Source: a virus. From it: a stretch of 64,000 nucleotides of DNA. Each line of letters begins with the position of its first letter. The first letter of the stretch is position 1. The translations under genes and the position numbers were made by a program. The notes beneath the pieces are model-generated. The model was given only the letters and a program-made list of their open reading frames with translations, was not told the DNA's origin and did no database searches. Below are positions 12,003 to 39,332 of this stretch, piece by piece. The stretch covers positions 1 to 64,000 of IMG/VR virus record IMGVR_UViG_3300036770_008715; one strand, 5' to 3'.

Positions 12003-12346
12003 ATTTTCCTCCCAACATATTTTGCATCTTCGGCTGAAGAAATGTATTGATAGGCACCTTTGTTGTAGGCTACAGCTACACGCTTAGACTTAGCAATGAT
12101 CTCGTTACGAGTTTCTTCTTTCTCGCCAGCAAGGAACATCGGATCAGTCATGCTCTTGCGATGAGCGCCGCCACCAACTCGATCGACGCTGATCGAAGCA
12201 TACTGTACTTTACCAGTATTGTATGATGGAATCTTAGCAGTTGAAAGTGCTTCGAGTTCACGACGGCTAAGTTTAACAGCAACAGGTCCAGCTTTCGGCT
12301 TGCGCTTCTTGCGTGGTTTGAAACTATTGTTCACGTATATCAGCAT
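11999..12346 (-). CDS. Basic hypothetical protein (115 aa)
   Basis: I place the start at the ATG at 12346, with GGGA a few bases upstream; a longer frame would need a TTG at 12367 and run further into the small membrane-protein gene. The N-terminus is very basic (FKPRKKRKPKAGP), followed by LSRRELEALSTAKIPSYN and a segment with VDRVGGGAHRKS. A nucleic-acid or head-binding role is possible. It overlaps neighbours at both ends (23 nt upstream, 4 nt downstream). The family is not recognised with certainty. Confidence 0.65.
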   Translation of the reverse strand: MLIYVNNSFKPRKKRKPKAGPVAVKLSRRELEALSTAKIPSYNTGKVQYASISVDRVGGGAHRKSMTDPMFLAGEKEETRNEIIAKSKRVAVAYNKGAYQYISSAEDAKYVGRKI

Positions 12347-12500
12347 ACCATTTCCCAAGTTTTTCAAGTGGCTCTTCTAGAGCTTTGTCGATATATGCAC
12401 AAAGATTATAGAAGTGCTTAATAATAAAAAAGAACACATCCCAAATAAAGGCAATTGATACTAACAGTGCTAATGCTAACCAGGCTCCATACTTCCTCAT
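12324..12500 (-). CDS. Small single-span membrane protein (58 aa)
   Basis: This is a short open frame, ATG at 12500 to TAG at 12324. The N-terminus MRKYG is followed by a hydrophobic helix (about residues 6-28, including LALALLVSIAFIWDVFFF) and a charged tail (ALEEPLEKLGKWYADIREQ). The positive N-terminus and single span suggest a small inner-membrane protein. Its ATG overlaps the TGA of the preceding 57-aa gene (ATGA) and its end overlaps the 115-aa gene by 23 nt, which argues for real translation. Function unknown. Confidence 0.65.
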   Translation of the reverse strand: MRKYGAWLALALLVSIAFIWDVFFFIIKHFYNLCAYIDKALEEPLEKLGKWYADIREQ

Positions 12501-12670
12501 CTATAGATACTCAAATAGTATGTAAACGGTATTATAACGCATATTACGATCAAAATCAATGATTTGATGCTATGTTTTTTCGGTACTTTTTCATAAAACG
12601 TACCATTATTACGATCTAGCGTTCGTTTGGTCTTCATATTTCGGTAGATTGGATCACCCCAGCTACTCAT
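12497..12670 (-). CDS. Small C-tail-anchored membrane protein (57 aa)
   Basis: This is an open frame from ATG 12670 to TGA 12497. A polar N-terminal half (SSWGDPIYRNMKTKRTLDRN) is followed by one hydrophobic helix near the C-terminus (SLILIVICVIIPFTYYLS). The start overlaps the end of the 62-aa gene and the stop overlaps the ATG of the next membrane protein, so the three form a coupled string. Function unknown. Confidence 0.6.
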   Translation of the reverse strand: MSSWGDPIYRNMKTKRTLDRNNGTFYEKVPKKHSIKSLILIVICVIIPFTYYLSIYR

Positions 12671-12851
12671 TCATGAAATCTCCGTTTGAGAAATCAAACC
12701 ACTCGCTGATCTCATTCATCACATAATATGCAATCTGTTCTTTGATCTGCTCGGGAGTTGGGTTGTCTACGTGTTTGTGCGCACGATTCCAACCATAAGC
12801 CACGCCCTCATCAACACAGCGTTCAATAATTTTGTACATTCTGGGTTTCAT
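12663..12851 (-). CDS. Small conserved-type phage protein (62 aa)
   Basis: This compact acidic protein (YKIIERCVDEGVAYGWNRAHKH, then NEISEWFDF) is of a type repeatedly present in T4-type phages. No motif for function. It overlaps the following 57-aa gene by 8 nt and lies 9 nt after the end of the upstream methyltransferase gene. Confidence 0.65.
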   Translation of the reverse strand: MKPRMYKIIERCVDEGVAYGWNRAHKHVDNPTPEQIKEQIAYYVMNEISEWFDFSNGDFMNE

Positions 12852-12859
12852 AAATCACC

Positions 12860-14026
12860 TCATAAATTAGCTGATACTATTTCATCATTACAGTTTGGTC
12901 TGAGTCGTTTAATCTTATTGGCGATTTCATCAATAAAATTCCAAGCATAAACCACAATCAAAAGGTCTTCATTATCTTGCGCCAAATAAGATTGAGAAAC
13001 AATTGGTATGTTAACCCCACCAATGACCATACCGATCTTTAGTGGATTCTCATCAACAATATAGTCATGATGTAGGCCAAAGTAGTTTGTTCGAACAACA
13101 CCTTTGGCTGCAACTCCATATCCAACAACTTTTTTATTAGATTTTGTTATCTTCTCTAGCAAGGATTTTTTATTGTTTTCTACTCTAATCCTAAACAGAT
13201 CATATGTATGCTCTTTATATAACAAAGATTCTTCAGCTTTTTTATTTTCTACTGCATTATTTGTTGGAGGATATTTCTTAATCTTGAACAAATAACTAAT
13301 CCCATGAACTGGCCTGTACTCAACATCATGCAACCAAAGCCCTGCATTTTCGCATAACTTTTGCATTGAATTGATAGTGAAGAATGAATGGTGCTCATGA
13401 TATATTGTATCAAACTCACCATTGGTTACCATATTTTTCTGAGAAGTTTGTATATACAAAGTTCCTTCATCTTCAAGAATATTGCCGCAGCTCTTAACAA
13501 ACTCAATAGGATTTGGAATATGGGCAACAACATTGAAGCAAGTTATAGCTGCGAACTTATCTTTGATATTATTTGATGGGAAGTAATCGCAAAGTATATT
13601 AAGCTCTTTATCAGTCATCTCGACTATATTTTGAGCAGGATCTATACCAGCAACTTCCCAATTATATTTCTTGAATGCTTTAAGGAACGATCCATCATTA
13701 CATGCAATATCCAATACTTTTTTAGATTCGCATTTATTTTCTTTATCAATAATAGAAGCGACCTTATCAAATTCTTGCACAAGAGTATTTGTTGTACCGC
13801 TAACATACAGATAGTTTTTGTATAGCATATCGCGATCAACTGCAATAGTCAGTTGACTGTGCCAACAATCCAAACAAACGTTTGTTGCTAGAGGAAACAA
13901 CTCTTCCTTTTCTTCCTTTGATTTCTTTAGGTTATTCGCTAACGGTTGTACGCCAAGATCGCAGAATAACTTCAGATTTGTTCCATTGCAAGCTAAACAC
14001 TTTGTCATAAATTCATAAGAAGACAT
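12860..14026 (-). CDS. SAM-dependent C-methyltransferase with N-terminal zinc-binding domain
   Basis: The 388 residues have the three-part layout of deoxysugar C-methyltransferases (Methyltransf_13/_14 type). First is a Cys-rich N-terminal zinc site (CLACNGTNLKLFCDLG, then CLDCWHSQ). Second is a class-I SAM-binding core (VLDIACNDGSFLKAF, about residues 95-110). Third is a C-terminal domain with VVGYGVAAKGVVRTNYF. The segment YHEHHSFFTINSM in the core matches the catalytic His/Glu region of this family. It likely adds a methyl branch to an NDP-sugar. It neighbours other sugar genes and a second methyltransferase of the same family at 15640-16860. Confidence 0.88.
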   Translation of the reverse strand: MSSYEFMTKCLACNGTNLKLFCDLGVQPLANNLKKSKEEKEELFPLATNVCLDCWHSQLTIAVDRDMLYKNYLYVSGTTNTLVQEFDKVASIIDKENKCESKKVLDIACNDGSFLKAFKKYNWEVAGIDPAQNIVEMTDKELNILCDYFPSNNIKDKFAAITCFNVVAHIPNPIEFVKSCGNILEDEGTLYIQTSQKNMVTNGEFDTIYHEHHSFFTINSMQKLCENAGLWLHDVEYRPVHGISYLFKIKKYPPTNNAVENKKAEESLLYKEHTYDLFRIRVENNKKSLLEKITKSNKKVVGYGVAAKGVVRTNYFGLHHDYIVDENPLKIGMVIGGVNIPIVSQSYLAQDNEDLLIVVYAWNFIDEIANKIKRLRPNCNDEIVSANL

Positions 14027-14039
14027 ACTAAACCCTCAT

Positions 14040-14975
14040 TTATAGAAACTTAGAGATGACATCCTCATAGCATTTTCTGAAGTTATCTTCTGTGCATATT
14101 TGTTGATATGCTGATATAGGTTCAAGGCCGTAGCCGATTATATCTTTGATTGGAGTTTTATCAATATCAATTCTATCGCTTAGAATGTGCTTAAACATTG
14201 AAGAGCTATTCACTGCTATAGGTTTCTTTGCCGCCAGTGCATAATCAGTACTGCTGCTGACCAGACCATCATTATTGTTCTGCGCATAATAGAAGATATT
14301 GATATCATTTTTATTCAAGAACAAAATAAGATGCTCTATATCAAGAAAATCGTGGTATATGTTTAATTCTATGTTTGGATTGGCAACGCTTCTGCATTCA
14401 TCAGCTAGCTTCCTAGCAGCAGTTCCAGTTATATCAACATAATCACCAAGGCCAATATTAAAATTTAATATAACATGCTCATCCTTAAATTGATTATTTA
14501 CATGATTTATGATCTTGGCATATTCCTTAGTATACCATCCAAACCCAAAATTTCCAATTTTAATTGGACCATTTGGCGGGCTATATTTAATATCATCAAT
14601 CTCAACTACAGGCCTTGGTATATTAACGCACTTATCATTAAATGGTTTAATATTTGGTGATATTAAAAAATTAGCAGCTGCCGATTGGAAGTTTGGTAGA
14701 AATGTTGGTTCATGGCCAATCGTTAAAAATTTAACACAAGGCAAATGATTTGCTAAATGATCGCTAAACCAATTTAGCAAAGAGCTATCATAATTGAATA
14801 TTATTGCATCTGGTCTATGTATATTAACCCACTGGATAAATTCGTCAATCCCATTGACAGGGGCAAAAAGATAGTTATATTTTTTACTTTTTTCTAGAAT
14901 CTTATATGTTGAAAGTCCGTATTGATAAACGCCACACTGCTTTTTATGCCCCTGAACAATTGCGATATTTTTCAT
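14040..14975 (-). CDS. GT-B-like glycosyltransferase (tentative)
   Basis: The 311-residue, AT-rich gene encodes a two-domain protein. The N-terminal half has HKKQCGVYQYGLSTYKIL and alternating strands and helices, and a linker with INIPRPVVEI. The C-terminal half has IKIGNFGFGWYTKE and NIFYYAQNNNDGLVSSSTDYALAAKKPIAVN, which resembles the donor-binding half of GT4-type enzymes. No exact catalytic signature can be fixed. It lies between two methyltransferases in the sugar cluster. Confidence 0.6.
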   Translation of the reverse strand: MKNIAIVQGHKKQCGVYQYGLSTYKILEKSKKYNYLFAPVNGIDEFIQWVNIHRPDAIIFNYDSSLLNWFSDHLANHLPCVKFLTIGHEPTFLPNFQSAAANFLISPNIKPFNDKCVNIPRPVVEIDDIKYSPPNGPIKIGNFGFGWYTKEYAKIINHVNNQFKDEHVILNFNIGLGDYVDITGTAARKLADECRSVANPNIELNIYHDFLDIEHLILFLNKNDINIFYYAQNNNDGLVSSSTDYALAAKKPIAVNSSSMFKHILSDRIDIDKTPIKDIIGYGLEPISAYQQICTEDNFRKCYEDVISKFL

Positions 14976-14985
14976 AATGAACCCT

Positions 14986-15636
14986 TCACAGCAATAGATA
15001 TTTGTTCCACAATTTAATAGATTTGTCGGCGGCCTTGAACCTATCGATAACTTCTCTTGATACTAGATCTGGATGTACATACCAATCTTCAAAATCACCC
15101 AATTCTTGCATAGGGCTGATATTGGAGACTATCAATTCATACCCTTTACTTTCCATAAACTCTCTACTTCTTATTTTGATATCATCGCCCCAAGCATAAC
15201 AATCATGCTCGAAAGTCAAGACAGCAAATCGATGAGTGTCAAATGGTAATTTCGTTAGCACATCAAAAGTGACGCTTGGAGGTTCGCAATCTACACTGGC
15301 ATAATCAATGTCAGTAACAGTTATTCCAGCTCGTAGAAGTAATCCAGGGTAATCCATTGTTCTAGCATCTTGCAGTTCGATGTGGTGTTTTCTACCGAAC
15401 CTTTTATGCTCATCATACCAGCCTCGGCTAATCTCTACGCTGGCTCCTCTCCACCCATAGTATTTCTCTAGAACATAACTGTTGCTTGTCTCAACAGCAG
15501 GGCCAGCTCCAATTTCAAGGTAGGTTCCATTAGTTTTACCATCAAGAATACCAAGAACAAATAAATCTTGCCCTGCTTGGCCGCAACCAGCCTCTATTAA
15601 CTCATGTCCCCTAAAAGGAAATTTTAGGTTATTCAT
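14986..15636 (-). CDS. FkbM-type SAM methyltransferase
   Basis: The 216 residues contain DLFVLGILDGKTNGTYLEIGAG as SAM-binding motif I of FkbM-type enzymes, WRGASVEISRGWYDEHKR as motif II, and DYASVDCEPPSVTFDVL after it. FkbM-family enzymes O-methylate sugars or polyketides, so a sugar hydroxyl is the likely target. It sits 3 nt from the next methyltransferase gene and shares the accessory operon with the other glycan enzymes. Confidence 0.8.
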   Translation of the reverse strand: MNNLKFPFRGHELIEAGCGQAGQDLFVLGILDGKTNGTYLEIGAGPAVETSNSYVLEKYYGWRGASVEISRGWYDEHKRFGRKHHIELQDARTMDYPGLLLRAGITVTDIDYASVDCEPPSVTFDVLTKLPFDTHRFAVLTFEHDCYAWGDDIKIRSREFMESKGYELIVSNISPMQELGDFEDWYVHPDLVSREVIDRFKAADKSIKLWNKYLLL

Positions 15637-15639
15637 ATA

Positions 15640-16860
15640 TTATCCAATAATTTGAAATTTCGGACAAGGAACTACCAGCTTACCGCCAGCTTTAACAAAT
15701 TCTTGTTCTCTCTTGACGAACTCATCGATGAAATGCCAAGGAAGAACTAGAAGATAATCTGGTTTGGCTGCGCGCATTTCTTCTTCGCTAACAATCGGAA
15801 TATTTGTTCCAACTGTGGTCAAGCCAAACTTATATGGACTACGTTCGGCAATAGCAGTTAGAAGATCTGGAGTAATCCCAAAAAGTTGCAGAAGAGTGTT
15901 GCCTTTCGTGCTTGCACCATAACCATAAACTTTCTTGCCTTCTTTCTTTGCTGTTTGAAGGAAATCCATCACCTGTTCTTTTAGTTCCCAGATATTATCA
16001 CCGAAAGCTGCCCAGTGCTTAGGATCAGAAATATCCCACTCTTTTTCTTCAAGAGCTAGGATTGAATCCACTCTGAAATCGCAGACATCTCGAAGTGGGG
16101 CGGTGCCAAAGGATGTTTTATCACTAACGTCTTTTTGGAAATATACTCTAAAGCTACCACCATTAGTATCATTCAAACTGCAATCACGAACAATAAACCC
16201 TTCACTTTCAAACAGTTTCTTAATACTCTTTAAACCATAATAGTATACGTGTTCATGACAAATATTGTCAAATGCAAGTTGTTTAAGCATCAGCGGAGTA
16301 TAGCTCATCTGCATAACAAACACACCATCATCTTCTAGAATATCATATACATCCCTGATGAATTGCCTTGGCTCTTCTAGATCATAGAACATAGCAATAC
16401 AAGTTACTACTTTAGCTTGCTTATGACCAAATCCAGTTTTATTATAAGCATCTCTAGAAAAGAAATCCTGAATGACTTTATTTGCAAATTTGCTGCTTTC
16501 TGCGACATAGGAATCATCGGCAGGATCGATACCAATTTTGATAACATTTTGGGGAATGAACTTAAACATTGTCCCATCATTACATGCAATATCAACCCAA
16601 ACATCATTAGAGTTCACTTTAATTCTACTAGTAATTTCGTCGACGATCTCATTGAGTTGTTTGGTCATGCTAGCGTTAATACCAGAACGATACCAATATT
16701 GGCCATACATCTTATCAAGTGGAACCGTTTGAGCTAGCCTAGCCGCTCCAATTTCATCATCAAGATATAGATCTAGACTATATTTTCCAGCCCTATAATC
16801 AGATCCAGGTTTAACAAAGTCGCTAACAAAATGATCTCCAAGCTCAAGAACTTTTTTCAT
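15640..16860 (-). CDS. SAM-dependent sugar C-methyltransferase (second copy of family)
   Basis: The 406 residues show a class-I SAM site VWVDIACNDGTMFKFIP (about 115-130), the catalytic-region motif ICHEHVYYYGLKSIKKLFE and the C-terminal VYGYGASTKGNTLLQLFGI, as in the methyltransferase at 12860-14026. The N-terminal Cys cluster of that protein is absent here: the first 60 residues contain no cysteine pairs, so the zinc module has been lost or replaced. A role in making a methyl-branched NDP-sugar is inferred. Confidence 0.85.
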   Translation of the reverse strand: MKKVLELGDHFVSDFVKPGSDYRAGKYSLDLYLDDEIGAARLAQTVPLDKMYGQYWYRSGINASMTKQLNEIVDEITSRIKVNSNDVWVDIACNDGTMFKFIPQNVIKIGIDPADDSYVAESSKFANKVIQDFFSRDAYNKTGFGHKQAKVVTCIAMFYDLEEPRQFIRDVYDILEDDGVFVMQMSYTPLMLKQLAFDNICHEHVYYYGLKSIKKLFESEGFIVRDCSLNDTNGGSFRVYFQKDVSDKTSFGTAPLRDVCDFRVDSILALEEKEWDISDPKHWAAFGDNIWELKEQVMDFLQTAKKEGKKVYGYGASTKGNTLLQLFGITPDLLTAIAERSPYKFGLTTVGTNIPIVSEEEMRAAKPDYLLVLPWHFIDEFVKREQEFVKAGGKLVVPCPKFQIIG

Positions 16861-16869
16861 AAAAACTCC

Positions 16870-17874
16870 TCAAATATTGTCTAAATCAGATTTACACATG
16901 TCAGATACAAGATCCTTCAAAGAATATTTAGGTTGCCACTTTAGAACCTTTCTTGCCTTCGAAGCATCTCCTAGTAAATTAACGACATCGACTGGACGAT
17001 AAAAATCTGTATTTACTTTAACAAGAATGTCACCAGTCTTTTTATTTCTTGCGAATTCATCAACGCCAGACCCTTCCCACTCAAGTTGGATATCAAAATA
17101 TTCTGCAGAGTAGTTGCAGAAATCTCTGACGCTGGCTTGTGTTCCTGTTGCAATAACATAATCATCTGGCTTGTCTTGCTGTAGCATCAGCCACATTGCC
17201 CTCACATAATCTTTAGCATGACCCCAATCTCTAAGGCTATCAAGATTACCAAGTTCAATTGGTTTAATTTTACCCATAGCAATATCAACAAATCCTTTGG
17301 TTATCTTGCGCGTCACAAACAATTCGCCTCGGCGCGGCGACTCATGATTATAAAGGATACCATTACAAGCGAATATATTATACCCCAACCTGTAGTTAAT
17401 CACTAACCAATGTGCATAGAGTTTAGCAGCACCATATGGGCTGGCTGGTCGAAAAACTGTTTCTTCGTTTTGAGGGGCTGTTTGTACCATACCAAACATT
17501 TCACTAGTGCTTGCTTGGTAGAATTTAGTGTTAAGATTTAACGCTCGAATTGCCTCAAGAATACGAAGTGGCCCCAATGCATTAATATCAGTTGTATGTT
17601 GTGGCGCCTCAAAACTGATCTTGACATGACTCTGAGCTGCTAGATTATAGATCTCATGCGGGCGAACCAAAGCAATAACTGCTGCCAAACAAATACTATC
17701 GGATAGATCAGCCTGATGTAGAGTTATTTTGTTTTTAATTTTTGCTATGTGTTTATGGTTTGAATCAGAACTTCTTCTGATAATACCATGTACCGAATAG
17801 CCCTTTTCTAATAGGAGTTCAGCCAAATAGCTTCCGTCTTGTCCAGTGATGCCTGTGATTAATGCTGTTTTCAT
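16870..17874 (-). CDS. gmd: GDP-mannose 4,6-dehydratase
   Basis: This short-chain dehydrogenase/reductase-type sugar enzyme converts GDP-D-mannose to GDP-4-keto-6-deoxymannose. The 334 residues start with the NAD(P) site ITGITGQDGSYLAELL and continue with VHGIIRRSSDSNHKHI. The catalytic Tyr-Lys pair lies in SPYGAAKLYAHW and the preceding Ser/Thr in YQASTSEMFG; NHESPRRGE and LRDWGHAKDYV complete the family pattern. The product could feed fucose, rhamnose or branched deoxysugars. The start overlaps the stop of the 39-aa gene (ATGA). Confidence 0.93.
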   Translation of the reverse strand: MKTALITGITGQDGSYLAELLLEKGYSVHGIIRRSSDSNHKHIAKIKNKITLHQADLSDSICLAAVIALVRPHEIYNLAAQSHVKISFEAPQHTTDINALGPLRILEAIRALNLNTKFYQASTSEMFGMVQTAPQNEETVFRPASPYGAAKLYAHWLVINYRLGYNIFACNGILYNHESPRRGELFVTRKITKGFVDIAMGKIKPIELGNLDSLRDWGHAKDYVRAMWLMLQQDKPDDYVIATGTQASVRDFCNYSAEYFDIQLEWEGSGVDEFARNKKTGDILVKVNTDFYRPVDVVNLLGDASKARKVLKWQPKYSLKDLVSDMCKSDLDNI

Positions 17875-17990
17875 TTTTTTACCTTCTTAGGCTTTTTATT
17901 GCCAAATATTTTTTCCCAGTTTTCCCTATATTTTTGGCTAGAGGGTTTGGTTTTAATAAGATCTCCTGTTATATCATTTTTCGAAGACAT
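17871..17990 (-). CDS. Tiny conserved-type basic protein (39 aa)
   Basis: This is an open frame from ATG 17990 to TGA 17871: MSSKNDITGDLIKTK, then a Trp/Lys-rich end (YRENWEKIFGNKK, KKVKK). The stop overlaps the ATG of gmd and the start lies 17 nt inside the end of the upstream gene, the tight coupling seen for real genes here. Proteins with a similar NDITGD...YRxxWxxIF pattern are common in aquatic phages as far as I recall. No function is known. Confidence 0.65.
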   Translation of the reverse strand: MSSKNDITGDLIKTKPSSQKYRENWEKIFGNKKPKKVKK

Positions 17991-18636
17991 CGATGTTCCT
18001 CCATCTCCCTGGTTCGAAATAATTGAACCAAACATAAACTTCTGGTAAATACATGGTATGTACTTGTTGTGTTATTGCTGTAATCAACATACCATCGCCA
18101 CAATCATACCTTGGGAATCTAAATCCTAGATCAAGAACCTTACCCTTGACTAAAATTTGTTCAAGCCCAACCTTCATCGGCTGCATAAAAATTGGATGGG
18201 CAATCAAAGTATTTGTGTGGTGATGGCGGTTGGTTCCTTTCACGCTTTCTGGAATCTCATCGCCTCGTTTCATTGAAGTGATGATAACATTAATTTCATA
18301 TGGGAAATTATATATCACATTTCGCAGTTTGTCAAAAAAATCTGGCTCGTATGCATCATCATCATTCAAAAAACAATACATATCTTCTGGTTCTAAAGGA
18401 TAATTATCTAGGAACCAATTGAGAGATGTATTAGACCTATCCCAAAATAGTTCCCTATCGTTATGACAAATATGGTGTTTAATCCAATCTTCTTGTGGTG
18501 GTACGAACTCATGGGATTTCGGATTATCGTCATCAGTCACAATATGCCAAAAAACATTGTGCCCCTTTAATGCATTATAAAGTTTTGGTACATTATCAAA
18601 CCTCGCTAATGGACAAACAACATGGAATTTTTGCAC
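17974..18636 (-). CDS. Glycosyltransferase-like protein (GT-A, DDD motif)
   Basis: The 220 residues begin QKFHVVCPLARFDNVPKLYNAL, like GT-A family members, and contain MYCFLNDDDAYEPDFFDKL, an acidic DDD donor/metal site, around residue 95. The C-terminal part with RYDCGDGMLIT and EVYVWFNYFEPGRW is less typical. The frame is linked to neighbours by 17-nt overlap downstream. The sugar and acceptor are unknown. Confidence 0.7.
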   Translation of the reverse strand: MQKFHVVCPLARFDNVPKLYNALKGHNVFWHIVTDDDNPKSHEFVPPQEDWIKHHICHNDRELFWDRSNTSLNWFLDNYPLEPEDMYCFLNDDDAYEPDFFDKLRNVIYNFPYEINVIITSMKRGDEIPESVKGTNRHHHTNTLIAHPIFMQPMKVGLEQILVKGKVLDLGFRFPRYDCGDGMLITAITQQVHTMYLPEVYVWFNYFEPGRWRNIDVFEK

Positions 18637-18638
18637 AG

Positions 18639-19262
18639 CTATTCTCCTGTTACAATGTTCATGTTTCCAGCTACAGAAATTCTAGTTTCATCTGAAGTGA
18701 AAAATGGATAGACACAATGAGTCATATTAGCAGGAAACATAATTATTCTCCCTTCGTCTCTTTTGTTTACCCAAATTAGATGGGAGCTCAAGCCCATAGT
18801 GTGAGTTGAATATGTGAGTTCAAATGCTGCAACTCTTGGAGTTTGCGGTTTCTCATGAAAATCTACCTTCAGTTCTTCATCAATATCATATGGAATATTA
18901 ACCCAAATAACAAAAGATGCTTTCCCACCATGAATGTGGTTTGGATTGTACTCACCTTTCTTTTGGTAGTTGATCCAAATGTCATTGATTACTGGATACT
19001 GATTATCTCTTAACTCGTGGTCTGGATCTACTGAAAATGTATTGCGCCAGGATCGATACATCTCTAAAAGAAAATTGCTTAGTTCTAGATCGCTATGGTG
19101 ATCGTATTGATATTCTTCTCGAATGTATGAAATTAGATTGTGATTGTATGTATCTTTCTTAGCAACACCAGAAAGGCAATCAGATTTTAATCTTTCAAAG
19201 ATGTGATTGGGAATTCTGCTTTCCAGAACTCCAGGGTTGTATATTGGTAGTATATTGAACAT
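18639..19262 (-). CDS. 2-oxoglutarate/Fe(II) oxygenase-like protein (PF13759-like)
   Basis: The 207-residue protein starts at the ATG at 19262 behind a strong GGAGG; a GTG at 19283 lies in the tRNA-flanking spacer and is less likely. The core reads IWINYQKKGEYNPNHIHGG (H109/H111 as proximal ligands), then FPANMTHCVYPF (H182 as distal ligand) and ETRISVAGN (R194 for 2-oxoglutarate), in the order of the phage/cyanobacterial putative 2OG oxygenase family. The proximal site reads H-x-H rather than H-x-D, so the exact metal ligand set is uncertain. The substrate is unknown. Confidence 0.75.
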   Translation of the reverse strand: MFNILPIYNPGVLESRIPNHIFERLKSDCLSGVAKKDTYNHNLISYIREEYQYDHHSDLELSNFLLEMYRSWRNTFSVDPDHELRDNQYPVINDIWINYQKKGEYNPNHIHGGKASFVIWVNIPYDIDEELKVDFHEKPQTPRVAAFELTYSTHTMGLSSHLIWVNKRDEGRIIMFPANMTHCVYPFFTSDETRISVAGNMNIVTGE

Positions 19263-19275
19263 CACACCTCCATAT

Positions 19276-19352
19276 TGGCGCACCCGAGAGGATTCGAACC
19301 TCTGACCAATAGCTTAGAAGGCTACTGCTCTATCCTACTGAGCTACGAGTGC
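19276..19352 (-). tRNA. tRNA-Arg (TCT anticodon)
   Basis: This is a 77-nt cloverleaf with encoded CCA. The acceptor stem is GCACTCG/CGGGTGC (one T-G wobble), the D stem GCTC/GAGC, the anticodon arm GTAGC-CTTCTAA-GCTAT and the T arm AGAGG-TTCGAAT-CCTCT. It would read AGA/AGG codons, which suits an AT-rich phage in a host that may use them rarely. Confidence 0.95.
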
Positions 19353-19354
19353 AA

Positions 19355-19561
19355 TTAATCATAATTTCCATGAAAATTATAATCTTCTTCGATCGGAGAA
19401 TACCAGAAACTTTCTAGCTCTTCCGCTGCGACTTGAGGTGTGAAGTTGTTTTTGTAGCAGGCAAATAACAAACTTGAATCCACAGCACTCAGCGCATCGA
19501 TTTGTAGAATTTTCATGACTTCTTTTTTATATAGGTCAAACGGATCAATGTACTGAATCAT
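19355..19561 (-). CDS. Small hypothetical protein (68 aa)
   Basis: This is an acidic small protein (FDLYKKEVMKILQIDALSAVD, then VAAEELESFWYSPIEED). It lies 2 nt from the tRNA-Arg 5' end and 8 nt after the epimerase gene; AGGAGATT precedes the start. No family is recognised. Confidence 0.55.
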   Translation of the reverse strand: MIQYIDPFDLYKKEVMKILQIDALSAVDSSLLFACYKNNFTPQVAAEELESFWYSPIEEDYNFHGNYD

Positions 19562-19569
19562 AGAATCTC

Positions 19570-20109
19570 CTAGAATTTAGGTGCGTCCTTGAATAGAATT
19601 CCAGCAGAGTCTTTGGCTGACAGACTATTAGGTTGCATTGGCCATTGTATGTTTAGATCTGGATCATCCCAGCGTATACATACATTATGCTTTGGGCTGT
19701 ACTTCCTGGTACATTTGTAAACTAGATCAGCTGTTTCACTCAGCACCAAGAATCCATGGGCAAATCCTGGCGGTATCCAGAATATGCGTTTGTTATGTTC
19801 TGACAATATTGTGGCAAACCACTTACCATAGCTGCTTGAGTTCTTGCGTAAGTCTACAGCCACATCAAACACTTCGCCGCTGATTACTCGAACCAGTTTG
19901 CCTTGGGTGTATCGAGTCTGATAGTGTAGACCACGGAGAACTCCGCGCTGAGATCGACTTTGATTATCTTGTACAAATACTTTACTGATGCCTACAGCGG
20001 CAAACAGCTCACGATTCCAAGACTCAAAGAAATATCCTCGGTCGTCGCCAAAGACCTTGGGCTCCAGCAGCACTAGATCTTTGACGCCATTTGTGTCAAG
20101 GAAGTTCAT
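19570..20109 (-). CDS. rfbC: dTDP-4-dehydrorhamnose 3,5-epimerase
   Basis: This is a cupin-fold epimerase acting on dTDP-4-keto-6-deoxyglucose in the dTDP-rhamnose pathway. The 179 residues match the family's usual length and contain SQRGVLRGLHYQ with the conserved catalytic His, the Lys-bearing QGKLVRVISGEVFDVAVDLR, and FWIPPGFAHGFLVLSE. No RfbA, B or D is seen in the window, so the other steps must come from the host or from elsewhere in the genome. The start overlaps the end of the upstream small gene. Confidence 0.93.
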   Translation of the reverse strand: MNFLDTNGVKDLVLLEPKVFGDDRGYFFESWNRELFAAVGISKVFVQDNQSRSQRGVLRGLHYQTRYTQGKLVRVISGEVFDVAVDLRKNSSSYGKWFATILSEHNKRIFWIPPGFAHGFLVLSETADLVYKCTRKYSPKHNVCIRWDDPDLNIQWPMQPNSLSAKDSAGILFKDAPKF

Positions 20110-24019: not shown

Positions 24020-24400
24020 TTAACCACCTTTATATGTTTTTTTCTTCAACTCGCTAATATCTTCATCGCTAAGAATACTGAGAGCTTCAAGTGCCTTGGC
24101 ATCGGAGTAGCCATAGTATTCTTTAACAACCTGCAAATCAGCGGCTTCGACCTTCTTGTGCCATTTAGCAAATGGACGTTTAAAAGGCTTAATGATATTT
24201 AGGCAAAAATCATAGTGGAGTTTATTGTCTAGGTTTGGATACAGATTGAGTTCATTTGCAACCAGAACTGTATCTTGATAGTTAGACAAGGCTCGCCCGA
24301 CCATGAACTTAGGATAGGACTTCTCATCCTGTTCGGTCAGAAGAACGTTTTCCTTCTTTTGCAGAATGCTCGGTATGATTTCTTTAAAGAGGTCGGCCAT
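24020..24400 (-). CDS. 62: gp62 clamp-loader small subunit
   Basis: This subunit joins gp44 to form the ATPase that loads the gp45 clamp. It is 126 residues from the ATG at 24400 (MADLFKEIIPSIL); the longer frame starts inside gene 44. FMVGRALSNYQDTVLVANELN and HYDFCLNIIKPFKRPFAKWHK fit the family. Its place between 44 and regA is decisive, since gp62 is poorly conserved in sequence. Confidence 0.93.
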   Translation of the reverse strand: MADLFKEIIPSILQKKENVLLTEQDEKSYPKFMVGRALSNYQDTVLVANELNLYPNLDNKLHYDFCLNIIKPFKRPFAKWHKKVEAADLQVVKEYYGYSDAKALEALSILSDEDISELKKKTYKGG

Positions 24401-25332
24401 TATGAGAATCCACATTCAACCATGATTTCAGTCAAACAGGCAACCATGTTTAGTTCTTGATCGGCAACAAACGCAGCCTGATATTGATACTTGGCCAGAA
24501 TCAAAACCAGAGGAGCAATGCTATCGTGGTCAAGAATATCATACATGTTATCATAGAGCTTGCGGAATACCACAGTTGGATCGTCTCCATTTTCTGCAGC
24601 CCACTTGCGCACTCCACCAAAGTTTTTTTCTTTCAGCGCAGAAACCAACTCAGCAATTGAAAGATCAGCCACATGAGAAAGAATACCAACGTCGATCTTT
24701 CCTGTTGCAGAATACCGCTGAAGCTCATTAAGAACTCGACGATAGTCTGGGAAATACTTTTTGATAACTTCAGCCAGAACAGGCACTTCAAACGGAACGC
24801 TCTCTTGCTTGAGAATTTCCATCGCTCTCTTCATAAACTGCTTGGCCATTGCTGGCTTATCATCCTTGCGCAGTTTAAACTCAACAACAGCACAGCGAGA
24901 ATGCAGAGGTTCGATGATTCGATTCTTATAATTGCAAGTCATAATGAACGTGCAGTTATGAGCAAACTCTTCCATCGCGCTACGCATAGCTGGCTGAGTT
25001 GAGTTTGGATTCAGGTAGTCAGCTTCGTCAATGATGATAACTTTCTTACCACCACCAAATGACATTGTTGACGCATAGCTTTTGATCTTCATTCGGAACG
25101 TGTCAATACCAGACTCGTCCGAACCATTGATCATCAGATAATCACAACCAACTTCCTCGCAGAGTGCTTTGGCAATTGTAGTCTTACCTACGCCTGCTGT
25201 GCCGCAGAGAAGAAGGTTTGGAATATCTTTTCGATCGACGTATTTTTGAAAAGTGTTTTTTAGGTTTTCAGGCAGAATGCAATCTTCAACAGTCTTTGGT
25301 CGATACTTCTCGACCCATAGCGATTCGCTCAT
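24400..25332 (-). CDS. 44: gp44 clamp-loader large subunit (AAA+ ATPase)
   Basis: This AAA+ ATPase opens and loads the sliding clamp. It is 310 residues from the ATG at 25332, which has GGGGTGA upstream; a GTG three codons earlier is less likely. Walker A LCGTAGVGKTT, Walker B VIIIDEADYL, the sensor MTCNYKNRI and the SRC motif HSRCAVVEF are present. It overlaps gp62 by one base. Confidence 0.97.
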   Translation of the reverse strand: MSESLWVEKYRPKTVEDCILPENLKNTFQKYVDRKDIPNLLLCGTAGVGKTTIAKALCEEVGCDYLMINGSDESGIDTFRMKIKSYASTMSFGGGKKVIIIDEADYLNPNSTQPAMRSAMEEFAHNCTFIMTCNYKNRIIEPLHSRCAVVEFKLRKDDKPAMAKQFMKRAMEILKQESVPFEVPVLAEVIKKYFPDYRRVLNELQRYSATGKIDVGILSHVADLSIAELVSALKEKNFGGVRKWAAENGDDPTVVFRKLYDNMYDILDHDSIAPLVLILAKYQYQAAFVADQELNMVACLTEIMVECGFS

Positions 25333-25337
25333 ATATA

Positions 25338-25994
25338 TCACCCCACATCATCAAAAAGTTCAAGTATATTGATTGCGTTCTTCACGTCTTCTCTGTTCTT
25401 TTTCTCCTGTACATTAGTGGTTGCATTTTTCAGATTAACGACGGAATTACCATATTGCCTTCTTAGCATTTTGATTATATGGTTTTCAGTCTTCCTCAAT
25501 ACTTCTTCGAAACTTCCTGGTTGAATTCGTTCAATCTGTTCAAAACTCTTAGTCATCCAATCTGGAAATAGATAAGCAGAAACTTTTAGGTGTTGAAAAT
25601 TTAAACCGAATAGTTCTTGATATAATCTGATATGATTATAATGCCCCAGTTTTTGATGTTCATCTCTGATACCAACCAGATCTCTACAATTTCTAGCAAT
25701 TCTATCAGAAATTTCTCGAGAAGATCCAACATAAATCCATTTTGGAATTTCAATGCCATTGGTATTCATTAAGATATAAATGCCAGGGCGATTGGCAGTT
25801 TTAAACCCAAACTGTTCTGCATGAATATTAAAAGTAGATCTCAAATATTCACTATTTACACTACCATCTTCTCTTCTTATATTTGGCAACGACATTAAGT
25901 TTGAGTCGTTCGAGAGAAACTCCCAACTCAAACTCAGGAGCAAGTCTTGCATATTATACTTTAGGATTGGTTCACCGCACAAATTAATATTCAT
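25338..25994 (-). CDS. GIY-YIG family endonuclease-like protein inserted in clamp/clamp-loader region
   Basis: The 218 residues contain GIYILMN (71-77) and KWIYVGSS (85-92), the two strands of the GIY-YIG fold. They are followed by R98 in SDRIARN as the conserved arginine, and by E170 in RKTENHIIK as the likely metal-binding glutamate. Residues 1-65 form a separate N-terminal region with no clear motif. The gene is markedly AT-rich and sits between dsbA/45 and 44, typical of a homing-type insertion, although it may be a resident nuclease. It ends NILELFDDVG, loosely like a clamp-binding tail. Confidence 0.78.
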   Translation of the reverse strand: MNINLCGEPILKYNMQDLLLSLSWEFLSNDSNLMSLPNIRREDGSVNSEYLRSTFNIHAEQFGFKTANRPGIYILMNTNGIEIPKWIYVGSSREISDRIARNCRDLVGIRDEHQKLGHYNHIRLYQELFGLNFQHLKVSAYLFPDWMTKSFEQIERIQPGSFEEVLRKTENHIIKMLRRQYGNSVVNLKNATTNVQEKKNREDVKNAINILELFDDVG

Positions 25995-26353: not shown

Positions 26354-27031
26354 TCAACCAAAAGTGGATTGCAAAGATTCAATAGCAATGTAATAAACAA
26401 CTTTCTTGTTCTTATTAGTGAACTTAGCAAGACCTTTCTTAGCAATATCAATTTGATAGTCGCCATCAAGCATCTTGAAGTATTCTACCTTCATCACAAT
26501 TTCAAAAGTAGCACCGTCTCCATCACCAATAGTTGTGCTAGAAACGTCAGAGGAGTCATCTTTAATATCAGTTGATACAAACTGAATTTTCTTACCATCA
26601 CTTCTGAATACAAAGTTTGGTGAACCAGAAATTCCTGCGCTCTTACGTTGCCAGTCAAGATCTTTCTGCGTTAGTTCGAATGAATAGTCAGGATGATCAA
26701 CGGCAAGAGATTTAGTAGCAGGAATAGTTGTAATCAACGTTGGCGAACAATAGCGAATGTAATCAGAACGCTTCTTATCGCTTGATACAAATACAACTCG
26801 ATCTTCTTGGAAATCTAGCTCACAATCACCATACAATGAATGCTTGGCAAGAAACTTGTTTAGATCATAGATGGCAAAGTCTTTTGGGAATTTCTCCTCG
26901 ACCGTTGCCATACCAAGAACAGTCTTGATATTAGACACAGTACCAACTGAAGAACCAGCCTTTACGCTGATGCCCTGATTGATTGTGGAGAAGTTCTTGA
27001 GAATCTCAAGAGTGTTAGCACTTAGTTTCAT
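26354..27031 (-). CDS. 45: gp45 sliding clamp
   Basis: This trimeric processivity clamp for gp43 in T4-type phages is also the mobile activator of late transcription. The 225 residues are close to the T4 length (228) and begin MKLSANTLEILKNFSTINQG; the segments VLGMATVEEKFP, AIYDLNKFLAKHSL and KMLDGDYQIDIAKKGLAKF fit the family. The gene is followed by dsbA, the GIY-YIG gene and 44, and overlaps gene 1 by 4 nt. It is the presumed docking partner of the shared TLEDFF-type tails. Confidence 0.96.
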   Translation of the reverse strand: MKLSANTLEILKNFSTINQGISVKAGSSVGTVSNIKTVLGMATVEEKFPKDFAIYDLNKFLAKHSLYGDCELDFQEDRVVFVSSDKKRSDYIRYCSPTLITTIPATKSLAVDHPDYSFELTQKDLDWQRKSAGISGSPNFVFRSDGKKIQFVSTDIKDDSSDVSSTTIGDGDGATFEIVMKVEYFKMLDGDYQIDIAKKGLAKFTNKNKKVVYYIAIESLQSTFG

Positions 27032-27672
27032 GATAGCCTCACTTTGTGGTCAAGTTCATAATTGAAGGATTCATACATTTCAAAGACATCGTCTTTAAGC
27101 ACATCTAAAGTATAATCGTTTTTTATTGTAAAGTCAACTAAATCCATAAATTGTACCCAAGAATATTCACTAGGATGAACTTCTGGATATTTTTCAGCCA
27201 TTACAACTGATGCATTTTGCTTTCTGGCAACATCAAACCATTCAGGTGAATCTCCTCTGGAAACCCAGACGATGAATCCGCCCAACTCTTTTATTCTTAC
27301 CATTTCATTAGGAAAGCGCACATCAGCAATGACATAGTTCTCTTCTGGATTGACTCGTTTCATCAATGAGAGAATCCACAAGTCTGGATGGAAAATATCA
27401 CGACCAGCCTCAGTACCAATCCATTGTAATGCTTGGCGCGGAGTGAAAGAGTAGCCAAACTTCTCACTCCACCAAGCGTCAGGCTTTTCGCGCCACTCTC
27501 GAGATTCTTTGGTTTCACCCTCAAGCATCTCGCGGTTCCATCCGAAGATCACTGCCGCAGCATCCTTTACACCAGCCGCAAAACTTTCTTTCCGAAAGTT
27601 ATAGTTGCCACTAAGGATGTCTGCGACAGTGCCCTTTCCCGAACCAATTAATCCAACAAGACCAATAATCAT
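27028..27672 (-). CDS. 1: gp1 deoxynucleoside-monophosphate kinase
   Basis: This enzyme phosphorylates dNMPs to dNDPs for phage DNA synthesis. The 214 residues begin with the P-loop IIGLVGLIGSGKGTVADIL, and contain FTPRQALQWIGTEAGRDIF and VIADVRFPNEMVRIKELGG, both typical of T4 gp1. In hypermodified phages such kinases often accept modified nucleotides, but nothing here shows that. The end overlaps gene 45 by 4 nt. Confidence 0.93.
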   Translation of the reverse strand: MIIGLVGLIGSGKGTVADILSGNYNFRKESFAAGVKDAAAVIFGWNREMLEGETKESREWREKPDAWWSEKFGYSFTPRQALQWIGTEAGRDIFHPDLWILSLMKRVNPEENYVIADVRFPNEMVRIKELGGFIVWVSRGDSPEWFDVARKQNASVVMAEKYPEVHPSEYSWVQFMDLVDFTIKNDYTLDVLKDDVFEMYESFNYELDHKVRLS

Positions 27673-27686: not shown

Positions 27687-28484
27687 TTAGAGAGAACCAA
27701 TATGCCCCGCTACTGCTTGTAGATCTCCATTAAATGCATAGGTTCCAATATGGTGAGTCTTCATCCAAGGACAGAGCCAGATCTGACCACCAATGTTACG
27801 CCACCACTGACAGAACATATAATCTTCTGATAGGTATCGATCTGACTTACCATGATCAATTACAGTATCAAAGTATGCATGGATATACCGCGAACCATCA
27901 AAGTTATCTTGGCCAACGTGATCAGGCTTATATCGAAGCTCTGGATACGCAGCCTCAAACTTCTCAAACACATGGCGCTTGATCATCATGTAACCAGTAC
28001 CAATCTCAAGAACTTCTACTGGCTCGGCAACTGAGAATTTATCAGTGCCTGGAACTGGGTTGAACACGTAATCACCAGTTACTTTGTCAAGCTCACCTGG
28101 CTCGATGTTTGGATTATTAAGAATTGCTTGCTTGACTGAAGACCACTTGATTGACTTCTTGGGATATGGTCCGCCGATGATGTCGCGATCAAGTGCTAGA
28201 AGTGCAATAACATCACGCGGATCAAAGTGAATATCTGAGTCAATGAACAACATGTGCGTAAACCCAGAACGCAGAAATTCATCTACCAGATAGTTTCGAG
28301 CCCGAGTGATTAGCGACTCATTAAAGATGAATGAAAATCGAACTTCGATTCCATAATTAGAACACAAACCCTGAAGGTCTAGTGCTGATTTGCAATACAT
28401 ACCAAAACATTGTCCACCATACATCGGAGTGGCAACAAAGAGTTTATGTTTACGCAAATCGTCGAGGGAAATTTCTAGATTCAT
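27687..28484 (-). CDS. GT-A glycosyltransferase adjacent to the TET cassette
   Basis: The 265 residues include KLFVATPMYGGQCFGMYCKS, SFIFNESLITRARNYLVDEF and HMLFIDSDIHFDP (D82-S-D84 as DxD), with DIIGGPYPKKSIKW and GTGYMMIKRHVFEKF later. This is a glycosyltransferase type frequent in marine T4-type phages. It lies 35 nt downstream of the TAGT gene, so it may add a second sugar in DNA hypermodification, but it lacks the TLEDFF-like tail and may act elsewhere. Confidence 0.8.
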   Translation of the reverse strand: MNLEISLDDLRKHKLFVATPMYGGQCFGMYCKSALDLQGLCSNYGIEVRFSFIFNESLITRARNYLVDEFLRSGFTHMLFIDSDIHFDPRDVIALLALDRDIIGGPYPKKSIKWSSVKQAILNNPNIEPGELDKVTGDYVFNPVPGTDKFSVAEPVEVLEIGTGYMMIKRHVFEKFEAAYPELRYKPDHVGQDNFDGSRYIHAYFDTVIDHGKSDRYLSEDYMFCQWWRNIGGQIWLCPWMKTHHIGTYAFNGDLQAVAGHIGSL

Positions 28485-28519: not shown

Positions 28520-29320
28520 TCAACCAAAAAAATCTTCTAGAGTTGCACCAACTTCAACTTTTGGTCTAGTATCGCGCAATCTGAGTTCAGCTCTGTTCTT
28601 AGACTCACGGATATACATGGTACAAAGATCAGGATACTGTTCCGCTAACAACTTAGCGTTTTTGGTTATATTCTCTTCCTTACGAGCATCAGTGCCTTGC
28701 ATTCCACCTGGCTCGTTATAGTATTTAGTCTTAATTGTAACATCATCCAATCGAATAACTGCACCATCTTTCAAATAATGTTGCAATGTTCTTTGGTAAT
28801 CTTCCTTCTCGTCAATAGTACAAACTAGATCTGAGTCGTGTCTATTAATGACTCCCCATAAAGCACCAACGCAAAAATACAATCCTACTGAAACTCTGTT
28901 TTTCATAAACATAGGATTGTTGACTGCATATACACCAAATAGATATGCATTATGCTTTATACATTCGTTGAATCCGCGAAAGATAACTTGTTCCTCAAGG
29001 TTCTCCACTGGAACTACAGTTTTATCATCAACCTTGCGTAAGACATCATATACATCATCATCAAAACAAACTAAGTTTGTTCCTACTGGATAATACTTTT
29101 GGATCACTCTACGTTGAGCTTGTAGAGTAATTTCTCCAACAACAATATTTTTATATGGAGTATTTTTTAGTTCTTTGGCATAGTCATCATACTCTTGTTC
29201 ATTAGCAACAAAAACTGTTACCCTCTCAGGATCAATGTTATGCTTACTCAACACAGCAAGAGTTTTTTCACGAACTCCTGATGCTCTACGATAGCTAGGA
29301 ATTGCTATTCTATAATCCAT
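28520..29320 (-). CDS. TET-associated glycosyltransferase (TAGT)
   Basis: The 266 residues begin MDYRIAIPSYRRASGVREKTL and contain NLVCFDDDVYDVL (D87-D89, donor/metal site), then IDEKEDYQRTLQHYL and YYNEPGGMQG, the pattern I associate with TAGT proteins of TET-encoding phages. The expected role is to glycosylate 5-hydroxymethylcytosine made by the TET enzyme. The C-terminus reads VGATLEDFFG, nearly the same as the ends of gp43 and the TET protein. It lies 11 nt downstream of the TET gene in the same transcript. Confidence 0.85.
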   Translation of the reverse strand: MDYRIAIPSYRRASGVREKTLAVLSKHNIDPERVTVFVANEQEYDDYAKELKNTPYKNIVVGEITLQAQRRVIQKYYPVGTNLVCFDDDVYDVLRKVDDKTVVPVENLEEQVIFRGFNECIKHNAYLFGVYAVNNPMFMKNRVSVGLYFCVGALWGVINRHDSDLVCTIDEKEDYQRTLQHYLKDGAVIRLDDVTIKTKYYNEPGGMQGTDARKEENITKNAKLLAEQYPDLCTMYIRESKNRAELRLRDTRPKVEVGATLEDFFG

Positions 29321-29331
29321 AGTAACCTCTA

Positions 29332-30681
29332 TTATTCAAATAGATCTTCAAGCGTAGAAATTTTTTCTTTTTCTTGTGGGTGATACTTATTCAACATTTC
29401 TTCGCCGCCAGTATCACGAAGAAAATCATACCACTCTTGCTGATTCCACATATTCTCAGATACGCCATTCCAAAGTGGGCGCCATAGTGGATGTTCTTTG
29501 TTCTTGCGTCGAGCTTCTACATACTGGAAACGGATATCTTCATATTCTTTGCTGCCAAGTTCAAGCATCTTCTCACGAAAATAACAAACAAGGCTGATGC
29601 GTTCTGATCCTTCTTCAGCAACAATCGGAGTGTTGCCATGAATAATTTCATGGTTGTTTACCAGTAGCAAATCACCTGGCCTAACATTAACAGCAATACG
29701 ATACTCAGGAAAAACTAAATAGCCGCCAGTATACTTGCCATCGTTCGATAGTACAAGAAGATTACTTAGGCCATCAGAAAAATCACCAGCGTCTCGATGG
29801 CATGCAGTTTGGAAATTTTTATTTACTGTGATCGTTGTGAAAACAGTCCCTGGAACAAGGAACGATGCATCAATACGATCTGCTGCAGATCTTTGGGCTT
29901 GCCAACGTAATGGAAGTAATTCTCGAAATCCTCGGTTGAGCGACTGAAGGAATGGAAATGCCATCTTGAATTTGTCGAAGTTGTTTTGCGTATAGGCTGT
30001 TGCTCGTCCATATGGAATCCTCGGGTATCGATCGAACCAGCCAGCAATTCCTGAAAAGACTTGGTTGGCATAGGTCGTATCTGAGATATATTTCTTTTCT
30101 ACATTTAGAGCCGATGCCTTTCTATCAGCAGGGCTCATCTTTAGAACAGACTCCAACCAATTCTCAAATACAAATTCGTCTTTCTTAATTTTTGCAGATA
30201 ACCAAACTAATCCTCTTGGTGATTCAGTGTTAGAAAACTTCTCACGAAGCAAGGCAACTTCATCAGCAATATCAAATTCAATAGTTGATTCAGGTATTTT
30301 GGCAAAAAGATCAAGCACCTGAAGTTGGAACTCATTGACCCAATCGCGATTAAGACATTTCTCGCCTTTGGGTCCAGCGGCCAACCCTCGATTTTGCGAA
30401 GGTGCAGCTGCATCGCGCAACCCTAGATATGCTTGCTTCTGTTCCTTGTTAGTAAAAAAATTCTTTCGGAATTTAAATGCGATTGTCGCTTCGTTAGCGC
30501 CCGAAGGGCAATCTTCACACTCAGTTTCACAAGTTGCTTTTGTTACAGCATCACAAGGAGGAATCTTGTAACAATCAGTATCTTCTTCAATCAAAATATC
30601 ATAATGTGATTCGTCAACAAATTGACCGAGAAGATGCTCGCAATCATATTTAGTTTTAGCGACGATTACATTCACACTCAT
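29332..30681 (-). CDS. TET/JBP-family 5-methylcytosine dioxygenase
   Basis: This 2-oxoglutarate/Fe(II) DNA dioxygenase is expected to oxidise 5-methylcytosine in DNA to 5-hydroxymethylcytosine. The catalytic half of the 449 residues shows TVNKNFQTACHRDAGD with H295-x-D297 as iron ligands, LLVLSNDGKYTGGYLVFPEY, a distal histidine in NHEIIHGN (H348), and R361 in SERISLVCYF for 2-oxoglutarate. IPYGRATAYTQNNFDKF precedes the core, as in phage TET proteins. A cysteine cluster (C37, C43, C51, C55, C58) near the N-terminus may bind zinc. The last residues KISTLEDLFE copy the polymerase tail. The gene has its own promoter. Confidence 0.9.
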   Translation of the reverse strand: MSVNVIVAKTKYDCEHLLGQFVDESHYDILIEEDTDCYKIPPCDAVTKATCETECEDCPSGANEATIAFKFRKNFFTNKEQKQAYLGLRDAAAPSQNRGLAAGPKGEKCLNRDWVNEFQLQVLDLFAKIPESTIEFDIADEVALLREKFSNTESPRGLVWLSAKIKKDEFVFENWLESVLKMSPADRKASALNVEKKYISDTTYANQVFSGIAGWFDRYPRIPYGRATAYTQNNFDKFKMAFPFLQSLNRGFRELLPLRWQAQRSAADRIDASFLVPGTVFTTITVNKNFQTACHRDAGDFSDGLSNLLVLSNDGKYTGGYLVFPEYRIAVNVRPGDLLLVNNHEIIHGNTPIVAEEGSERISLVCYFREKMLELGSKEYEDIRFQYVEARRKNKEHPLWRPLWNGVSENMWNQQEWYDFLRDTGGEEMLNKYHPQEKEKISTLEDLFE

Positions 30682-38614: not shown

Positions 38615-38829
38615 GCAGCTTCCCTCTTAATTTCCCAAGCCCAGTTTACCGCGCACCAATCAACAATGCATCGATCTTTCGAAAGTTTAGCAATGTTCTC
38701 TCCACGTTTAATCATTCGCATACACCAATCATCCCAATACTCTTTAATAATTTCTTCCTCGCTCAGAGTTACTTCTACAGATTGGCCAAACGCATCATCA
38801 GCTGGTATGATATACCTATAATACCTCAT
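38611..38829 (-). CDS. Small conserved-type protein (72 aa)
   Basis: The protein starts MRYYRYIIPADDAFGQSVEVTLSEEE and is rich in Trp and Cys (WDDWCMRMIKRG, CIVDWCAVNWAW). It overlaps gp47 and gp55 by 4 nt each, suggesting a real gene of the 55-47-46 operon, as seen in other T4-type phages. Function unknown. Confidence 0.7.
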   Translation of the reverse strand: MRYYRYIIPADDAFGQSVEVTLSEEEIIKEYWDDWCMRMIKRGENIAKLSKDRCIVDWCAVNWAWEIKREAA

Positions 38830-39332
38830 TCTGATTCCCCTTTCAACTTTTTTGTTTTGACAGAAGTTTCATAGTTCTCAATAAACGCTGAAATATTATC
38901 ATACAGTTCAAACTGTCTGTTAACACCATCAGCATCTAGTTGATTGAATTCATCAATAACACCAGACATCTCTGCTGACTTGTACTTGACATAGAGTTGT
39001 TTCTTCTCGCGTTGTATCCGCCTCAAGAATGCATAATATACTATTTGAGTGAAATAAGCAAATGGATTACTGGATTTTGTTGGGTCGAAGTTGTCAGCAT
39101 AGAGCACACAGTTTTCAATAGCATCGGAAATCATTTCATCACGAAAAGTATAAGAGATAAAGTTGGGCTTATGTGATAGGTTCTCAGCTATCATCATGAA
39201 ACACTTCCCAACATACTCAGGAATCCGAGGCTTCTGTTTGTTGGCTTCTTTAGCTTCCTTGATCTTATCCTTGTATGCAATCATTTCTTTCAGGAACATT
39301 GAATTGTCAATATAATGCGTTCTTTTCTTCAT
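38826..39332 (-). CDS. 55: gp55 late-transcription sigma factor
   Basis: This small sigma-like subunit directs host RNA polymerase to TATAAATA late promoters. The 168 residues (T4: 185) contain SYTFRDEMISDAIENCVLYADNF and SSNPFAYFTQIVYYAFLRRIQREKKQ, the sigma region-2-like core. The matching late promoters occur in this window at 1877, 23606, 41762, 42856, 45514 and 48083. I see no clamp-binding tail like that of T4 gp55. Confidence 0.95.
   Translation of the reverse strand: MKKRTHYIDNSMFLKEMIAYKDKIKEAKEANKQKPRIPEYVGKCFMMIAENLSHKPNFISYTFRDEMISDAIENCVLYADNFDPTKSSNPFAYFTQIVYYAFLRRIQREKKQLYVKYKSAEMSGVIDEFNQLDADGVNRQFELYDNISAFIENYETSVKTKKLKGESE

Follow-up and report, generated by a model that had tools for sequence, protein, structure and literature searches.

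A polymerase-type C-terminal tail on the TET dioxygenase and TET-associated glycosyltransferase of a T4-type virus suggests docking on the gp45 sliding clamp

Why do the DNA polymerase, a TET dioxygenase and a glycosyltransferase of one virus end in nearly the same peptide? The question is raised by a stretch of 64,000 nucleotides (the window), positions 1 to 64,000 of IMG/VR record IMGVR_UViG_3300036770_008715, which forms part of a 140,073-base virus record with about 148 open reading frames (ORFs, by simple calling) and 45,256 residues. A first-pass annotation had proposed that both DNA-modifying enzymes dock on the sliding clamp gp45, so that oxidation and glycosylation follow the replication fork. 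Here, we examine the tails in this genome, their distribution among related loci and the explanations that may account for them.

The tails and their genome

The genome is of the T4 type, with gp43, gp44, gp45, gp55, UvsW and others matching T4 families in PHROG and Pfam. The family B replicative DNA polymerase gp43 (843 residues; 7223-9754, minus strand) matches phrog_262 with 1085 bits, together with PF00136 and PF03104, and its C-terminal end reads WKTEKISTLEDFFG. The TET/JBP 2OG-Fe(II) dioxygenase (449 residues; 29332-30681, minus strand; PF12851, 78 bits, cut-off 34.9) ends in KEKISTLEDLFE, and the TET-associated glycosyltransferase, TAGT (266 residues; 28520-29320, minus strand; PF20691, 36.1 bits, cut-off 27.5), in KVEVGATLEDFFG. 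These profile matches bear out the identities given to the three proteins in the first pass. The clamp loader gp44 is encoded at 24400-25341 (minus strand; phrog_168, 429 bits; PF21328, Gp44_lid) and gp45, the presumed docking partner, at 26354-27031 (minus strand; phrog_223, 194.6 bits). This gp45 matches the structures of T4 gp45 (1czd), the T4 gp45-ligase complex (6drt) and RB69 gp45 (1b77 and 1b8h), 1b8h being the entry with a gp43 peptide.

The tails, EKISTLEDFFG in gp43 (7226-7258), EKISTLEDLFE in TET (29335-29367) and VGATLEDFFG in TAGT (28523-28552), all lie in frame on the minus strand where the first pass had placed them, in ranges that also took in the stop codon. The gp43 tail serves as the reference clamp-binding tail, as it occupies the position of the gp45-binding C-terminus of T4 and RB69 gp43. 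As claimed, the codons differ between copies: gp43 and TET disagree at six of the nine shared residues (AAG/AAA, ATA/ATT, TCA/TCT, ACC/ACG, CTC/CTT and GAC/GAT). When compared with STLEDFFG over eight positions, TAGT agrees at seven and TET at six, and none of the other 145 C-termini at more than four. Using patterns that were defined after the tails had been seen, we found the loose C-terminal pattern three times in the roughly 148 ORFs of the whole record, covered as the window and four further stretches (gp43, TET and TAGT), against 0.17 expected from its internal rate, and the strict pattern [ST]L[DE]x[FLM]F nowhere else in the 140,073-base record, internal or terminal. The observation is confirmed, and it is stronger than originally put.

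Both enzymes carry the hallmarks of their families. In an alignment of 42 homologues, N287, H295, D297, H348 and R361 of TET are invariant; H295, D297 and H348 correspond to the HxD...H iron ligands of the 2OGFeDO domain and R361 to its 2OG-binding arginine. The TET model has a mean pLDDT of 91.2, with CcTet, NgTET1 and human TET2 as the best Foldseek matches. Oxidation of 5-methylpyrimidine in DNA is the putative reaction of this TET/JBP dioxygenase. TAGT, the next gene after TET, combines its above-threshold profile match with an invariant acidic metal-binding motif (D87-D88-D89), and its AlphaFold2 model has a mean pLDDT of 93.6. In both models, pLDDT falls around a terminal helix: the TET tail forms a short helix (444-448) of reduced confidence, with a pLDDT of 72 in the last block, and the TAGT tail a one-turn helix (261-265) after a low-confidence linker with block means of 70 and 54.

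Several other genes of the window were noted. The phrog_1574 protein (27687-28484, minus strand) matches the Anp1 glycosyltransferase family weakly, at an E value below cut-off level (7e-5), and has no tail; its gene is present past the TET-adjacent slot in most relatives. A deoxynucleotide monophosphate kinase (27028-27672; PF21448) belongs to the same gene cluster as TET and TAGT. The gp55 protein (38826-39332, minus strand; phrog_234) ends in KTKKLKGESE, without a clamp tail, and in several relatives gp55 ends in GLEKFVDED or INLEKLVEDDE. A 218-residue protein encoded between gp44 and gp45 (25338-25994, minus strand) ends in NILELFDDVG; it was considered as a further tail carrier and dropped, having no Pfam or PHROG match and, as its sole relative in the loci, an identical copy. 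Sugar-pathway genes at 11044-20109 (minus strand), including a dTDP-4-dehydrorhamnose epimerase (19570-20109), a C-methyltransferase (12860-14026) and a GT2 glycosyltransferase (11044-11796), might provide TAGT with a nucleotide sugar or act in the synthesis of a surface glycan. In the 140-kb record, which may be incomplete, neither PF00145 (C5-methyltransferase) nor PF00303 (thymidylate synthase) found a match.

Protein families that carry the tail

The distribution of the tail was surveyed in 372 related loci with 3318 distinct ORFs in 111 protein families, defining it as [ST]-L-[ED]-x-[FL]-F followed by zero to two residues and the stop codon. It is enriched in only seven families: gp43 (34/38), TET (92/128), two TAGT branches (23/55 and 10/16), GT-B (11/11), a second GT-B-like protein termed GTb28 (3/3) and the amino acid:DNA transferase ADDT (21/35). 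In the remaining families, 16 of 1203 representatives have it, and the loose pattern has a base rate of about 1.3%. Compared position by position, gp43, TET, TAGT and GT-B share the [ST]-L-[ED]-x-[FL]-F core; ADDT deviates and favours G-L-E-A-[FL]-W. Zero to two residues follow the motif in all families.

When the ORFs of 83 TET loci were clustered, 40 families had at least five members, and four of these were tailed in at least half of their members: TET, TAGT (7/7), GT-B (17/17; PF00534, tail type STLDDLFG) and ADDT (44/51 by the loose pattern; PF18724, mostly GLEALW). TAGT, GT-B and ADDT are non-homologous to one another. The slot between TET and the conserved phrog_1574 gene holds TAGT, GT-B or an ADDT cassette (L008-L090), the latter consisting of a GATase, a GNAT, other small genes, ADDT and a P-loop kinase. 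Unrelated enzymes interchange in this slot, nearly all of them tailed, and what it exchanges is putative DNA-capping chemistry. In two loci (L139 and L140), three adjacent genes for TET, a GT4-like protein and ADDT end in TTLEDFF, TTLEDFF and NSLDKFF, respectively, with one ambiguous base in the TET tail of L139. The GNAT acetyltransferase of the ADDT cassette (L034:5296-5931 and relatives) ends in HQVDLFA or KEVDLFA, perhaps another clamp-like tail.

Within the Melnitz-type group, the tail is found on gp43 (53/56), TET (52/65), TAGT (PF20691; 9/12) and two further GT-B-like families (5/5, no Pfam match; 4/4, weak Pfam match). The C5-methyltransferase encoded between gp43 and TET in this group is tailed in 0 of 66 cases. 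Since this adjoining gene lacks it, the tail is not a general operon feature; with other neighbour families likewise untailed, we rejected an effect of operons or of translation ends in general.

TET homologues were collected from IMG/VR independently of the tail, by means of HLLGQF-like and HYD-like peptides of the N-terminus. The tail is nevertheless present, for example as STLEDLFG or STLEDMFA, in 79 of the best 80 homologues. Among 74 TETs less than 90% identical, ungapped comparison gives a mean identity of 63% for the six tail residues and 28% for the preceding ten, and the nearly invariant tail leucine is encoded by all six leucine codons. This pattern looks like purifying selection on the peptide within a fast-changing C-terminal end. 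In 47 Melnitz-type genomes, the TET 6-mer is never identical to that of gp43 from the same genome (0/47), and it often ends in F-L, F-I or F-M where gp43 has F-F. A signal of coevolution between the two tails in these 47 genomes is weak (partial Mantel r = 0.20, p = 0.012), and we give it no weight.

Association with gp45 and T4-type context

Comparing homologue tails with those of their own polymerases had been suggested as a check on docking, and the outcome is in favour. Where gp43 of the relatives is present in the data, it has the same kind of tail as TET and TAGT. With T4-type neighbour genes as the context marker, TET is tailed in 65 of 69 cases in such a context vs 14 of 45 without (p = 5e-13), and TAGT in 23 of 24 vs 5 of 39 (p = 2e-11); several of the tailed TETs and TAGTs outside the context come from short contigs of clearly T4-type clades. 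ADDT tails do not follow the context (p = 0.46).

The presence of gp45 itself gives a similar picture. In a set of 32 longer TAGT contigs, all seven with a gp45 match are tailed; of the 25 without a gp45 match, 19 are untailed and six, all partial contigs, are tailed. We found gp45 (phrog_223) in DLP6, Cr30, C48C1, Melnitz and all seven long window-type TET contigs that were searched, and did not find it in S-CBWM1, HTVC112P, P12024L, Donny, Altadena or Prairie. The TETs and TAGTs of these six phages are untailed, except for the TAGT of S-CBWM1, which ends in HELEDLLP although this phage has neither a gp45 nor a gp43 match; we regard it as a weak exception.

Homologues in gp45-encoding phages that lack the tail had been named as the observation that would speak against docking. 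Such cases are confined to a few TETs (Cr30, L055, L235 and L193), in which the tail is shortened or displaced, and to the TAGT-family protein ggt of T6, which like T4 BGT is untailed although both phages have gp45. In Caulobacter phage Cr30, the TET tail is shortened to GATLF (L002:7998-9326), and similar tails are kept on gp43 (ADLSSLFD) and a TAGT-like glycosyltransferase (SDLSKLF). On the TAGT tree, the tail state changes at least ten times; among eight TAGT pairs that are independent by descent, tail and context change in the same way in 4.4 and in opposite ways in 1.0 (p about 0.4, not significant). The association with context is strong in counts, yet with only these eight independent pairs, shared ancestry may contribute to it. 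More weight attaches to the recurrence of the tail on enzyme families that are unrelated.

Phages of the P12024L type, which lack gp45, have tails of another kind: TAGT (7/7) and the kinase (8/8) show QxxLF-type ends (QLEIF, QTKLF, QQSLF, QQTSLF). A C-terminal Qxx[LI]F occurs in 21 of 190 ORFs of this group, a figure inflated because the motif was the reason for including four of the loci, vs 0 of 3128 in other loci. The TAGT tails QLEIF, QTKLF and QQSLF resemble the bacterial beta-clamp consensus QL(S/D)LF (PMC9690074), but most tails of the group have no leucine at position 2, where only QLEIF fits, and the P12024L-type TET itself has no such tail. We treat these ends as a lead, not a result, for a host beta-clamp motif in gp45-less phages. 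In the same loci (L007, L122-L138), a 151-residue protein of unknown family and a DNA methyltransferase also end in QxxLF.

Docking on the clamp and its meaning

In T4, the C-termini of gp43, gp55 and gp33 bind gp45 at a hydrophobic patch and can replace one another (PMC2988020, PMC7892883); the premise that the gp43 tail of T4 and RB69 binds gp45 agrees with PMC2988020. For comparison, T4 gp43 ends in ASLDFLFG, RB69 gp43 in ASLFDMFDF and T4 gp55 in SLDFLYEAND. The tails described here resemble these motifs (SCBM, with the LDFL motif) in their extreme C-terminal site, their S/T-L-acidic-x-hydrophobic-F core, their putatively flexible linker and their occurrence in a phage that encodes gp45 (PMC2988020, PMC9690074). 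They differ in their carriers, which here are DNA base-modifying enzymes, and the gp55 of the window has no tail.

We consider it likely that the tails are functional gp43-type gp45-binding motifs on base-modifying enzymes. Because these enzymes end, in many T4-type viruses, in the peptide with which the polymerase holds the clamp, they probably ride the clamp and act at the sites of DNA copying. The proposal that TET and TAGT dock on gp45 is well supported by comparison, as T4-type homologues keep the tail; the binding itself and the tethering we infer from this likeness, and coupling of oxidation and glycosylation to the fork is plausible. More specifically, a flexible linker would lead into a one-turn helix, as in gp43, with the leucine and the [FL]-F pair inserted into the hydrophobic gp45 pocket between acidic flanks. 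This would tether TET and the glycosyltransferase encoded after it, whose place in relatives is taken by the unrelated GT-B or ADDT, to DNA-loaded gp45. TET would oxidise 5-methylpyrimidine of new DNA and the transferase would then cap it, ahead of host restriction. The F-L, F-I and F-M ends of TET would be in keeping with a weaker hold on gp45 that leaves the polymerase in place.

The alternative closest to this reading accepts the binding and drops the fork: the tails may hold the enzymes on clamps that stay on the DNA once the fork has passed, or on mature DNA, as a scanning tool-belt in the manner of late transcription, or may simply raise local concentration. It is a possibility of real weight, which we nevertheless rate below even chances. 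In T4 late transcription, gp45 works away from the fork (PMC7892883, PMC2988020), expression, not clamp binding, is the main control on T4 glucosylation (PMC13216743), and TET tails that never equal those of their own gp43 would also suit weaker, transient binding. Against it, gp43 and the two modifiers are the sole carriers of the tail in the whole record, and gp55 is without it; the present data do not separate it from fork coupling.

A reading in which the tail binds another protein that also touches the gp43 C-terminus appears unlikely to us. Another partner could read the same C-terminus, but the C-terminus of RB69 gp43 has been crystallised in gp45 and the gp43, gp55 and gp33 tails bind gp45 (PMC2988020). 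Furthermore, the tail goes along with T4-type context and with gp45, and the homologous glycosyltransferases of gp45-less phages have a beta-clamp-like tail instead.

It is very improbable that the 3' end of gp43 was recently copied onto genes nearby and has no function there. The extreme 3' end of a gene is the easiest place for such a transfer; however, the codons differ, the tail stands out as conserved within a fast-evolving end, enzymes of at least five non-homologous types bear it across large distances, and the TET and gp43 6-mers of one genome are never identical. Recent gene copying was rejected on these grounds. Least probable of all is chance or the composition of hydrophobic-acidic C-termini, in favour of which stands the background rate of the loose six-residue pattern, but which the excess of tails in this record and the seven enriched families of 111, all polymerase or modification enzymes, led us to reject at the family level.

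Clamp docking of phage DNA hypermodification enzymes may be a general rule, a claim that we think about equally apt to hold or to fail. Non-homologous TET, GT-A, two types of GT-B and ADDT would repeatedly have gained a tail that fits the clamp at hand, [ST]LEDFF for gp45 or QxxLF for the host beta clamp, and the slot after TET would swap its chemistry and keep the docking tag, making these enzymes passengers of the replication clamp.

Binding of a phage DNA glucosyltransferase to a sliding clamp is already known from T4 alpha-glucosyltransferase (AGT). As PMC13216743 relates it, Sommer et al. (2004) reported that AGT binds gp45, and the interaction was confirmed by pull-down (PMC13216743). 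Promoter swaps in T4 indicated that it is not the main determinant of glucosylation (PMC13216743). AGT differs from the enzymes described here in that it belongs to a different protein family, ends in FCFKEQFDIITK without a gp43-type tail, and modifies hmC that is produced as a nucleotide and not by a TET enzyme.

In mammals, DNMT1 binds PCNA, so that there, too, a cytosine-modifying enzyme is brought to replicating DNA by the clamp. The PCNA-binding motif concerned, Qxx[IL]xx with two aromatics, is unrelated to the phage tail. A Tet1-PCNA contact has been reported; at sites of replication, however, the candidate Tet1 peptide failed to localise, and Tet2 and Tet3 have no such peptide (PMC9440122). 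The first-pass statement that no clamp-docked TET had been reported stands for phage TETs in the literature that we found and is qualified by this mammalian contact. Our literature search, of limited coverage and not proof of novelty, returned no report in which phage TET, TAGT or ADDT carries a motif for clamp binding.

If the docking reading is true, it would provide a mechanism by which post-replicative hypermodification keeps pace with replication and shields new DNA from host nucleases, and TET, TAGT and ADDT would join the proteins that ride sliding clamps. The tail offers a simple C-terminal signature for finding DNA-modifying enzymes among uncharacterised T4-type phage genes, and it bears on whether clamp binding by modification enzymes, as in T4 AGT and DNMT1, evolved many times.
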